24,273 nt of DNA from a virus: IMG/VR virus record IMGVR_UViG_3300032215_000044, positions 1 through 24,273 of that record, one strand, 5' to 3'. Both the position numbers and the translations under genes were made by a program. The notes beneath the pieces were generated by a model. The model saw only the letters and a list, made by a program, of their open reading frames with translations. It had not been told where the DNA came from and made no database searches. Numbering within the stretch: position 1 is the first letter of the stretch; each line of letters starts with the position of its first letter. Positions 14,775-24,273 of this stretch are shown here, piece after piece.

Positions 14775-15438
14775 TTTGAACGAGATGCTCGTGAAATCTT
14801 TACACGCGTTCGATGCCAGCAGGTCGAGATCTCAGCAGGTTGAGGTTGGGCCAAGCAGCATTGGCGGTTGTCGCAGGCGTGTCTGGCACGACTTAAAGCA
14901 AACGCCAGAGACCAACCCCAATACTGAGTCACTCGCCGCAATTCTTGGCACGTTTATTCATTCTGGAATTGAGAAATCAATTAGGCGCGAAGATCCCTTC
15001 GGCGATAACTTTATTATCGAAGGTGAGTTCAAGTCTGGAGATCTCAAAGGTCACGTAGATCTATTTATCAAAGACATAGGTTTGGTCGTGGATTGGAAAA
15101 CTACGAAGGTCAAATCATTGCGCTATTTCCCGTCACAGCAACAACGCTGGCAGGTTCAGATCTACGGTTGGTTGCTGGAGCAGAACGGTCACGCGGTAAA
15201 TGAAGTGGCGCTAGTGGCAATTCCGCGTGACGGCGAAATGGCAGACATACGTGTTCATAGAGAAGCCTACGACGCTCCAACGGCATTGGCTGGTATTGCG
15301 TGGCTTGAAGCCATAAAGTTGATAGTAGAGAACAACGATCCAGCGCCACTGCCAACAGAGACGCCTTTGTTCTGTACTAAATACTGCACTTACTATGATG
15401 CGACAGGAGAAGTAGGTTGCCCAAGTACGAAGAAATAA
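14767..15438 (+). CDS. Cas4/RecB-like PD-(D/E)XK nuclease with Fe-S cysteines
   Basis: 223 residues from ATG 14767, six bases after GGAG; an in-frame ATG at 14755 has poorer spacing. Domain order fits Cas4/AddB-type exonucleases: GPSSIGGCRRRVW with Cys35, GTFIHSGIE with His65, GHVDLF (Asp98), VVDWKTTK (Asp109, Lys111), QVQIYGWLL (Gln131/Tyr133), and a C-terminal FCTKYCTYY...GC cluster (Cys203, Cys207, Cys218). The four cysteines would hold a 4Fe-4S cluster. It is predicted to resect DNA ends for recombination and replication. No CRISPR array is present. WhiB begins inside its end. Confidence 0.85.
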   Translation: MIDLNEMLVKSLHAFDASRSRSQQVEVGPSSIGGCRRRVWHDLKQTPETNPNTESLAAILGTFIHSGIEKSIRREDPFGDNFIIEGEFKSGDLKGHVDLFIKDIGLVVDWKTTKVKSLRYFPSQQQRWQVQIYGWLLEQNGHAVNEVALVAIPRDGEMADIRVHREAYDAPTALAGIAWLEAIKLIVENNDPAPLPTETPLFCTKYCTYYDATGEVGCPSTKK

Positions 15439-15791
15439 ATTGGGACATTGCTGAGTGTCGCGGTATGTACACCGATCTGTTCTACCGCGTAGAAGAAGAG
15501 CGCAGCGCTGACGCATACATCTATATAAATGCGGTCAGGGAAGTATGCGCGCGCTGCCCTCTTTGGCAACAATGTTTCCAATACGCCTACGAACATGAAC
15601 GGTATGGAGTTTGGGGCGGAATGACCTCACTTGAACGAGCGTCATTTCACGCACCAGACAAATATCCCAACCAACGGCAGAGGGCGCTGAGATCGTTATC
15701 GGATTTCGGCATCACATTAGAGAACATTAGGAGATCAATTGAGCATACGTCTCATGTCGGAAGTTTGGCTAACAAGGCTTCCACTGACTGA
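15417..15791 (+). CDS. WhiB-family iron-sulfur transcription regulator
   Basis: 124 residues from TTG 15417, with a GACAGGAG-like site upstream. Cys14, Cys44, Cys47 and Cys53 have the family spacing Cx29Cx2Cx5C and bind a 4Fe-4S cluster; YGVWGGMTSLER (63-74) is the WhiB turn that contacts the host sigma factor region 4; it is followed by a basic C-terminus. WhiB proteins occur only in Actinobacteria and their phages, so this fixes the host phylum. Phage WhiB can dominate host WhiB control (known for mycobacteriophage TM4). Here it precedes the replication initiator gene, suggesting a role in redirecting host transcription. Confidence 0.88.
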   Translation: MPKYEEINWDIAECRGMYTDLFYRVEEERSADAYIYINAVREVCARCPLWQQCFQYAYEHERYGVWGGMTSLERASFHAPDKYPNQRQRALRSLSDFGITLENIRRSIEHTSHVGSLANKASTD

Positions 15792-21203: not shown

Positions 21204-21875
21204 ATGGAAATCATCAAGGCACAGGTAACAGAACTCAACGAGTACGCCAATAACCCACGCAAAGGCAATGTGGATCTTATTGCCGAGTCATTGTCTAAAT
21301 ATGGTCAATACAAGCCAATTACGGTAAACAAAGAAAACAACGAAATCTTGGCAGGCAATCACACATACCGTGCTGCCAAGCAATTAGGTTGGGAGACAAT
21401 TGACATAGTCTATGTAGATGTAGATAGCGTCACCGCAGCCAAGATCGTCGCAATTGACAACAGATCATCAGACATTGGGCAATACGACAATAAGATTTTG
21501 GCTGATTTATTAAACAGCATGGACAACCTTGAAGGATCTGGATACACGTTCGATGAATACGATGACCTAAAGGCTGAAATCCAAGAACGAGATTTACCAG
21601 TATTAGACCAAAAAACTACGTTCACTTCACTACAAGTAGGCGAAACAGGTCAATCTGGTACTACTTTTATACCTTCTTTGAGCGATTATGCAGAACGTTA
21701 TGTCAATAAAGCGACGCGTATGCTCATGTGCGATTACCACAACGACATTTATGTTTGGCTAATAGACGCTTTGATAGAATACCGCGCAGCAAATAACTTA
21801 GTCAGCAACGCTGACGCCATAGTTAAATTGCTAGAAGACGCAGTAGGAAAGAAAAGCCCAAGTGAAACTAACTGA
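21204..21875 (+). CDS. ParB/Srx-like nuclease-fold protein
   Basis: A 223-residue protein. The ParB N-terminal domain is clear: LNEYANNPRKGNVDLIAESLSKYGQYKPITV (residues 11-41), then LAGNHTYRAAKQLGW (49-63), with the G-H-R-AA pattern of CTP/nucleotide-binding ParB proteins. The C-terminal half (DLLNSMDNL..., then LMCDYHNDIYVWLIDALIEYR) is not a familiar HTH. In phages, ParB-like genes often lie next to DNA methylases or base-modifying enzymes; this one is followed by an oxygenase, so it may bind DNA or a nucleotide for that system. The end overlaps the next gene by 14 bases. Confidence 0.8.
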   Translation: MEIIKAQVTELNEYANNPRKGNVDLIAESLSKYGQYKPITVNKENNEILAGNHTYRAAKQLGWETIDIVYVDVDSVTAAKIVAIDNRSSDIGQYDNKILADLLNSMDNLEGSGYTFDEYDDLKAEIQERDLPVLDQKTTFTSLQVGETGQSGTTFIPSLSDYAERYVNKATRMLMCDYHNDIYVWLIDALIEYRAANNLVSNADAIVKLLEDAVGKKSPSETN

Positions 21876-22740
21876 GTTACCTGTTCATAAGATCAAGCGC
21901 GTTATGTCTGTCGAAGACGCTTCAGCGCTAGTAGGTACTGTTGTTCCTGATTACAAGGCAAACTGTACCGAAGCAGGTATTTGGGTAGATGAGGACACAG
22001 ACGAAGTTATTTTCGTTTATTTCCCGATGGAAGAAGAAGTCGAATTGTTGCGAGCCTCAGTGCTAAAGATCAATTACGGTCAAACAATTAGACAATCAAC
22101 AGGCTTAAAGAACGCGTCACGCACCTTTGGAATGGCTCCACGCAAGATCTTCCAGCGCAGAGAGAGTTGCAGACCAACGACATTGGCACAAGAACAGCCC
22201 AACGAACACGCGGTATTGATCGCTTTCGCTGAAAAGTTTGCCAATATGTATAAAGAGTTCGCGCCTGATCTGTATGAGGCGGATCGTAAAGCACTCTCAG
22301 ACAACAATGTATCTGATGAGTGGCGCATGACTGATGACGCACTTTGGACTTCTGGCGTGGTCAATAAAGCCTCAACACTTCCTTATCACCGAGACGGTTT
22401 CAATTTCGCTACGTGGTCGGCAATGCCAGTGATCCGCAGAAAAATGAAAGGCGGATACCTAACACTGCCTGAATACGACTTCACTTGTTCTTGTCGTGAC
22501 GGCTGGGTGACTTTCTTTGCTGGATACAAGTACGTTCATGGCGTGACACCAATGACGCCTAGCGCTGATGACTCATACCGTTACTCAATTGTTTATTACG
22601 CATTGCGTGGAATGAAAGATTGTTTCACTTACGCGGTAGAGACAGCGAAGGCACGTGAGAGCAGGACTGCGCGTGAGGACAACATGGCAAAAGCGCTCAA
22701 AGGCGAAATTGCTATGCCAACCTTGGGCAACGGTAAGTGA
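21862..22740 (+). CDS. 2-oxoglutarate/Fe(II)-dependent oxygenase (predicted DNA base hydroxylase)
   Basis: 292 residues from GTG 21862. The C-terminal double-stranded beta helix has the full iron and cosubstrate set: LPYHRDGF (His176, Asp178), HGVTPM (His226) and SYRYSIVYY (Arg240). The N-terminal 110 residues include MEEEVELLRASVLKINYGQTIRQSTGLKNASRTFG, similar in kind to phage TET/JBP-like proteins. Such enzymes hydroxylate the methyl of thymine or 5-methylcytosine in DNA. The neighbours (ParB-like, amino acid transferase-like, FAD enzyme) support DNA base oxidation; a free-nucleotide or protein substrate is not ruled out. The next gene overlaps by GTGA. Confidence 0.8.
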   Translation: MKLTELPVHKIKRVMSVEDASALVGTVVPDYKANCTEAGIWVDEDTDEVIFVYFPMEEEVELLRASVLKINYGQTIRQSTGLKNASRTFGMAPRKIFQRRESCRPTTLAQEQPNEHAVLIAFAEKFANMYKEFAPDLYEADRKALSDNNVSDEWRMTDDALWTSGVVNKASTLPYHRDGFNFATWSAMPVIRRKMKGGYLTLPEYDFTCSCRDGWVTFFAGYKYVHGVTPMTPSADDSYRYSIVYYALRGMKDCFTYAVETAKARESRTAREDNMAKALKGEIAMPTLGNGK

Positions 22741-23621
22741 GTCTTTGGTCTGATTACACACAGTTCCATGAAGCGCAAACTCAGTCGCGTGACATGGATC
22801 CTGCTTATCCAGTATTGAAATGGTTTGCTGACTCTATGAATAGAGAAAGCGGTTTGTGGCTGACTTTCTTGTTTGTCGGTTATTACCACATGGGCTCAGC
22901 GCTCAAAGCGTTCAGTTTGTATCCCACACCCACGGTTCCAGCGCAAGAAGATCTGAAATTACCAATCGCGCAGCCACGCAGATCTCACAGAGCCACACTG
23001 CGATTCGCACAACACCTGGACTCACTTTGTGCCAAAGCAGAAGAACACGGCGGCTTGGGCACTTGGCTGGATAGCGCAAGTGAGTCTGAGGATCCAATCA
23101 CAAATTGGAAAACACTCAATGATGAACTAGCAACGGTGTTTGGTAACGGGCGTTGGGCAGCGTACAAAACAGCAGAGATCTTGTATAAATCTCACGGGTT
23201 CAATCTGGAAGTACCTGATATGGGCAACGCAAACTCCAGTGGGCCACGCAAAGGGCTGGGCTTGTTCTTTCCTGGGCTACCGCAAGGCAATTCACCCACT
23301 GAAGTAGCACAATTAGATGATCTGAGCACAAAGGTTGTCGATTATCTTCAAGGCAAAGTTTCACAAGTCAGCATGGAGACTGCTGAGACTTCATTGTGTG
23401 ATTTTTATGCAATGACCAAAGGGCGTTATTATGTCGGCATAGACATAGATGAGATGCAGGAGCAGTTGTTACGCGTCCCTTCTGACTTAACTGAAATGGC
23501 TTTTAAAGCCAGACACGACACATTACCTCATGCCTATTTAGGCGAATTAAACGACTGGGAAGGCATAGACAAAATGCGCAAATCCGTTTATCGCAACACA
23601 CGCCAGATCGCGCTTAGATGA
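22737..23621 (+). CDS. Amino acid:DNA transferase-like protein (predicted hypermodification enzyme)
   Basis: 294 residues from GTG 22737. The layout matches the ADDT/AADT family of phage DNA hypermodification, from memory: SLWSDYTQF...RDMDPAYPV at the start, GLWLTFLFVGYYHMGSALKAF, GRWAAYKTAEILY, SSGPRKGLGLFF (167-178), ETSLCDF (217-223) with the invariant-type Cys, GRYYVGIDIDEM, and the ending LGELNDW. These proteins are predicted, with a DNA glycosylase-like fold, to attach an amino acid to a hydroxymethyl-pyrimidine activated as phosphate. Here it follows the oxygenase that could make the hydroxyl. The family label needs a profile check. Confidence 0.7.
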   Translation: MSLWSDYTQFHEAQTQSRDMDPAYPVLKWFADSMNRESGLWLTFLFVGYYHMGSALKAFSLYPTPTVPAQEDLKLPIAQPRRSHRATLRFAQHLDSLCAKAEEHGGLGTWLDSASESEDPITNWKTLNDELATVFGNGRWAAYKTAEILYKSHGFNLEVPDMGNANSSGPRKGLGLFFPGLPQGNSPTEVAQLDDLSTKVVDYLQGKVSQVSMETAETSLCDFYAMTKGRYYVGIDIDEMQEQLLRVPSDLTEMAFKARHDTLPHAYLGELNDWEGIDKMRKSVYRNTRQIALR

Positions 23622-24273
23622 AACTTATTGTCATAGGCGCTGGTATTGCAGGATCATCAGCCACGCGTATAGCGCGCTCAAAGGGGTGGGACGTGACATT
23701 AATTGACCACGCACCAGAGCAATCAGCGTCCAGATCCGCGCTCGCCACAATTAGACCGACTTGGTTCAATAAGGCTGAGCGTAAAGGTCTTGAAAGATCT
23801 TGGGAGTGGTACAGCACTTGGGGAGCAGCGGGTACAAGAGAAGCACACGTATCGAATTGGAAGAACAAAGAAGTTAAAACACAGAAAGATTGGTGGCTAG
23901 TAGATCCAATTCTTCCACTTGTGGCACCAGATCTTGTCGAGCGCGTAGTAGGGATCTATAAGACATTCGTCACCACGCCTACGAAAGAGATCGCTGCTGA
24001 CGCTATCTTGAATTGTACGGGTGCGTACGGGGACGATCTGGCGCATGATGTGACATTATTTGCTGGCGTCACTTGGATCTCGCATAACGCAGAATTGGAT
24101 TATTCACCATACCGTGTCCACCATTTGAGACCATACAAATCACTCTCAGCGGCGCAGATCAACGGGGTGACGCGTGTTGGATCCTCAATAGCCAAAACAG
24201 CCGATAAAGCCATAGATGACGGCAAAGAATTACTGATGACGGCTATTGCGTTAGGCATAATAAAGTCAGGAGA
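23618..24273 (+). CDS. FAD-dependent oxidoreductase (partial)
   Basis: Starts at ATG 23618 (ATGA overlap) and stays open to the window end, 218 residues. The Rossmann FAD motif is KLIVIGAGIAGSSATRIARSKGWDVTLIDH (GxGxxGS, then Asp at the strand end), followed by SALATIRPTW, LNCTGAYGDD, and VHHLRPYKSL. The pattern resembles DAO/glycine-oxidase-like and MnmC C-terminal oxidases, which act on amino acid adducts. Next to an amino acid:DNA transferase, it may oxidise the attached amino acid on DNA. The substrate-binding end is missing from the window. Confidence 0.75.
   Translation, partial: MKLIVIGAGIAGSSATRIARSKGWDVTLIDHAPEQSASRSALATIRPTWFNKAERKGLERSWEWYSTWGAAGTREAHVSNWKNKEVKTQKDWWLVDPILPLVAPDLVERVVGIYKTFVTTPTKEIAADAILNCTGAYGDDLAHDVTLFAGVTWISHNAELDYSPYRVHHLRPYKSLSAAQINGVTRVGSSIAKTADKAIDDGKELLMTAIALGIIKSG

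Follow-up and report, generated by a model that had tools for sequence, protein, structure and literature searches.

A predicted thymine hypermodification cassette with a TET/JBP-family oxygenase in an actinobacterial phage

The sequence analyzed here, which we call "the window", is a complete IMG/VR entry of 24,273 bp (IMGVR_UViG_3300032215_000044) from a tailed phage. A WhiB-family regulator gene at 15417-15791 (PF02467, 4.1e-14) points to an actinobacterial host. At the end of the window four reading frames follow one another with overlaps of 14, 4 and 4 nt (Table 1). The Pfam matches of all four products, to ParB_N, Tet_JBP, ADDT and DAO, exceed the curated cut-offs, bearing out the series of ParB, oxygenase, transferase-like and FAD genes in the original prediction, which was made from the nucleotide sequence alone. 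The gene for the FAD enzyme is truncated by the end of the record.

Table 1. Genes of the cassette; positions are those of the window, except for the kinase, which is placed on an overlapping contig (L030).
Feature	Position	Strand	Length and evidence
ParB-like protein, ParB_N domain and GNHTYRAA box	21204..21875	+	223 aa; PF02195
TET/JBP-family 2OG-Fe(II) oxygenase, predicted T -> 5-hmU hydroxylase on DNA	21862..22740	+	292 aa; PF12851
Amino acid:DNA transferase (ADDT, aGPT-Pplase2 type), predicted glycinyltransferase	22737..23621	+	294 aa; PF18724
DAO-type FAD enzyme, predicted N-alpha-GlyT lyase	23618..24273	+	218 aa, open at record end; PF01266
P-loop kinase	L030:6963-7496		177 aa; PF18751 7.8e-26; Walker A GAPGSGKT

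A search for relatives yielded 23 contigs with transferase identities of 80-100%. The contig IMGVR_UViG_3300034198_003490 (L030) overlaps the record over 7537 bp with one mismatch, extends about 2 kb beyond it, and comes from the same phage. On this contig the FAD enzyme has its full length of 269 aa (L030:6001-6810) and is followed by the kinase, a small terminase-like protein and the large terminase, the terminase names being read from gene position and sequence with no profile match behind them. Projected onto the window, the kinase gene starts at about 24580, past the record end. The full cassette consists of genes for the ParB-like protein, TET/JBP oxygenase, amino acid:DNA transferase, FAD enzyme and kinase, and the record carries four of the five. 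An activating kinase had been expected, and the P-loop protein encoded just downstream supplies it; the ParB-like protein, once considered for that role, was dropped as a candidate when the P-loop kinase turned up on the overlapping contig. Comparisons among close relatives gave dN/dS ratios of 0.04-0.15 for every one of the five genes, rough values in that several dS estimates exceed 1, indicating that these are coding genes under purifying selection.

The ParB-like protein matches ParB_N at E = 3.7e-7 and, in PHROGs, phrog_723 at 9.5e-46; its N-terminal part also matches phrog_498, a family named DNA methyltransferase. The oxygenase matches Tet_JBP (1.5e-11; 44.3 bits against a cut-off of 34.9) and is 43-49% identical to the homologues of Tonitrus, MO526, Wooper and Phelemich. 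The HxD...H...R pattern that had been noticed in it corresponds to the TET ligands H176-x-D178, H226 and R240, which are invariant in 10 of 10 aligned homologues. Judging by its cassette partners and by the missing C5-methyltransferase, the enzyme is predicted to hydroxylate the 5-methyl group of thymine in DNA, as the JBP type does. In phrog_6059 and in RefSeq (e.g. NC_011044, NC_047987) the protein bears the name queuine tRNA-ribosyltransferase, which is backed neither by the Pfam match nor by the active site.

Membership of the 294-residue protein in the amino acid:DNA transferase family, also foreseen, is confirmed by its profile match to PF18724 (6.2e-19; 69.1 bits against a cut-off of 26.2). 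A Foldseek search with its AF2 model (pLDDT 96) placed 8z2n/8z2m at the top, the 5-PmdU glycinyltransferase gp46 of Pseudomonas phage PaMx11 (TM 0.64); the identity of 8z2m with gp46 was verified by sequence. Only three PDB matches have E <0.001, all of them gp46, and the next structural matches are 8-oxoguanine DNA glycosylases.

The FAD enzyme matches DAO at 1.2e-11 and falls in phrog_16743 (4.6e-16), the PHROG of PaMx11 gp47. A phmmer comparison of the single protein with the PDB gave no match; the relation emerged only with a sequence profile, for which the best match was 8z2o/8z79 at 2.2e-9. The model (pLDDT 94) is closest to 8z2o, the N-alpha-GlyT FAD-dependent lyase gp47 (TM 0.80), with glycine oxidases next. 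The glycines of the GxGxxG motif (G7, G9 and G12) are invariant, as is Arg252 (39/39), which in the alignment falls on the RNG motif of glycine oxidase. The carboxylate of the substrate is bound by the Arg in this motif, which fits an amino-acid adduct as the substrate of the FAD enzyme. PaMx11 gp47 has Lys at the position of this Arg, and identity to the PaMx11 enzymes in structure alignments is low (14-17%). The best structural matches of the transferase and the FAD enzyme are thus two consecutive PaMx11 enzymes, gp46 and gp47, which supports a pathway to 5-aminomethyl-2'-deoxyuridine (5-NmdU). The work on gp46 and gp47 reportedly established 5-NmdU as the end product in PaMx11. Similarity to gp46 and the lyase partner make glycine the most likely donor for the transferase, and the FAD enzyme is predicted to be a lyase that releases glyoxylate to yield 5-NmdU. 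The original prediction allowed for a new final base; with the PaMx11 GlyT lyase as the closest solved relative of the FAD enzyme, a known product is favoured instead.

The kinase matches PF18751 and not PF18748 (HMUDK_HMUD1), which Pfam names 5-hmdU DNA kinase. It has phrog_800 in common with gp54 of Pseudomonas phage M6 and PaMx11 gp49, and a profile comparison with the M6 5-hmdU kinase family gave a moderate match. Though it lies outside PF18748, its function is probably that of a 5-hmdU kinase, as these links to M6 gp54 suggest. The label terminase small subunit is given to the kinase in many records (L044:1592-2176, L043:1786-2382, L045:1802-2377, L006:3761-4333) and in PHROGs (phrog_800). 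Unlike the Phelemich and MO526 cassettes, the window phage has a separate small terminase-like gene 3' of the kinase, so this label is probably wrong.

The source of 5-hmU was traced in eleven records: M6, PaMx11 and nine TET-bearing relatives, of which four are near relatives with possibly incomplete records and five are complete named phages. M6 and PaMx11 both carry PF00303, against 0/9 TET relatives, and PF12851 shows the opposite pattern; PF00145 (C5-methyltransferase) and PF02511 are absent from all eleven. The TS-type enzymes that mark nucleotide-pool synthesis of 5-hmdUMP in the manner of M6 and ViI (PF00303, PF02511) are therefore lacking in the nine, in agreement with the earlier proposal that hydroxylation occurs in place, with no hydroxymethyl-dUMP synthase. 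Such a synthase elsewhere in the genome was also considered, and none was found in the four near relatives, possible fragments like the window record, or in the five named phages. The absence of both TS-type genes and C5-methyltransferase fits a TET enzyme that replaces the nucleotide-pool enzyme and acts on thymine, not cytosine.

From the identity, homology, conservation and linkage of these genes we infer a post-replicative pathway, its glycine donor, its product and its protective role, and give this reading a probability of roughly 75%. The TET/JBP oxygenase, with the ParB-like protein as its DNA-binding partner, would turn thymine in DNA into 5-hmU, which the kinase would convert to 5-phosphomethyl-dU. 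The ADDT protein would then swap the phosphate for an amino acid, most likely glycine, attached through its amine. Finally, the FAD enzyme would act on the newly formed C-N bond, oxidising it on the amino-acid side to give glyoxylate and 5-NmdU; if the amino acid is N-linked, this step would yield 5-NmdU irrespective of which amino acid was added. The modified bases would protect the phage DNA against host nucleases. The idea that the chemistry runs in gene order does not hold, since the kinase gene is last, yet its product would act second. A more tentative extension, which we think possible but doubtful, is that thymine is converted to 5-NmdU wholly on DNA with no nucleotide-pool step, and that a ParB-like clamp brings or controls the TET enzyme, so that the modified thymines are programmed and not set by incorporation of 5-hmdUTP.

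The FAD enzyme might have other chemistry within the same cassette, such as oxidation without release or action on another amino acid or linkage, in which case the final base would not be 5-NmdU and may be new. Its identity to PaMx11 gp47 of just 17% in the structure alignment leaves room for this, and tailoring clearly varies, because some relatives have an unrelated Rossmann-like protein, no tailoring enzyme or, in LilMcDreamy, an Asp/Asn-hydroxylase-like gene. We nevertheless consider it unlikely, as the GlyT lyase outranks all glycine oxidases by both profile and structure, and the FAD enzyme shares a PHROG with gp47. Some phage TET enzymes act on 5-methylcytosine produced by a phage methyltransferase, and a cassette that oxidises 5-methylcytosine and hypermodifies cytosine would have that precedent; it is very improbable here, given that PF00145 occurs in 0/9 related records (the nearest four possibly incomplete) and that the kinase and transferase fall in 5-hmdU/5-PmdU families. 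Least credible is a host target such as tRNA, which the queuine tRNA-ribosyltransferase name and the parallel between the predicted product chemistry (glycine adduct to aminomethyl, as in wobble-uridine modification) and MnmC might suggest, but the MnmC match is limited to a 35-residue FAD-binding segment, the TET protein matches Tet_JBP and no tRNA-ribosyltransferase family, and the nearest relatives of the ADDT and FAD enzymes have 5-PmdU and GlyT in DNA as their described substrates.

Cassettes of this type are already present in phages of Mycobacterium, Gordonia, Rhodococcus and Microbacterium and are annotated in several actinophages. Close variants have been published for Tonitrus and CaiB as a putative thymine hypermodification system (PMC11955845, PMC9302106). 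Like other TET-type actinophage cassettes, that of the window phage groups its ParB, TET, ADDT and kinase genes close to the terminase, and by sequence it adds one more member to a family known from cultured actinophages. Phelemich/Reprobate (Mycobacterium) and MO526 (Microbacterium) share all five functions, in identical order and adjoining the terminase, and differ from the window phage in host range and in sequence distance (identities of 43-45% for TET, 37-43% for ADDT and 32-37% for the kinase); MO526 has an extra gene between the ParB-like gene and TET. Tonitrus (Rhodococcus) and CaiB/Wooper (Gordonia) share the ParB, TET-like, aGPT-Pplase2/ADDT and kinase genes, but their fifth gene encodes a Rossmann-like protein. 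The Pseudomonas phages are more distant. PaMx11 (N-alpha-GlyT to 5-NmdU; 8z2m, 8z2n, 8z2o, 8z79) has homologues of the transferase, FAD lyase and kinase and, in addition, an acetyltransferase, but it carries a TS-type gene and no TET, whereas the window family carries TET and no TS-type gene. M6 (5-NedU pathway) shares the ADDT family and the P-loop 5-hmdU kinase; it has a TS-type enzyme without TET, and other tailoring genes (annotated as threonine dehydratase and photolyase).

The cassette joins the structurally solved PaMx11 enzymes with the TET-type cassettes of actinophages. It leads to a concrete prediction, that 5-NmdU is made from thymine on DNA, which can be tested in phages already in culture. 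No base measurement for a TET-type cassette turned up in the literature searched, which is weak evidence that none exists. The family may also provide a thymine-directed TET enzyme and amine-tagging enzymes for DNA chemistry.

Of the 60 related loci, 58 were found to have TET, 57 the kinase, 55 ParB, 44 DAO and 8 the Wooper-type protein. In the subset flanked by 2.9 kb or more on each side, ParB, TET, ADDT and kinase were present together in 31/31, at most 30 of which are independent because L075 and L121 are one Streptomyces contig, and near-duplicates also remain. DAO accompanies them in 23 of these, the Wooper-type protein in 5, and neither in 3. A scan of bacterial genomes returned just one Streptomyces contig, itself present in IMG/VR.

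The Wooper-type protein (about 290 aa) begins with a Rossmann-like segment, matches no Pfam family above cut-off, and sits in the place of the FAD enzyme (L003:3054-3926, L004:3761-4642 and eight IMG/VR loci, e.g. L103 and L119). Wooper gp5 and Tonitrus gp8 were considered as distant DAO enzymes, and this was rejected when profile comparison detected no full-length relation to the DAO family. The three loci with full flanks and no recognised tailoring gene are L088, L092 and L096; the product of these cassettes may be the bare amino-acid adduct. Nigel (L043), MementoMori (L044) and KayaCho (L045) have ParB, TET and kinase, with an ADDT match nowhere in these complete phages, and the modification of their DNA may stop at 5-hmU or phosphomethyl-dU, or another transferase may be used. 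LilMcDreamy gp4 (L006:2656-3759), an Asp/Asn beta-hydroxylase-like protein (PF05118, 1.5e-10), occupies the slot of the FAD enzyme, which suggests a different final base. In L067, L069, L072 and similar loci the arrangement is altered, with a divergent TET gene after the kinase instead of before the transferase.
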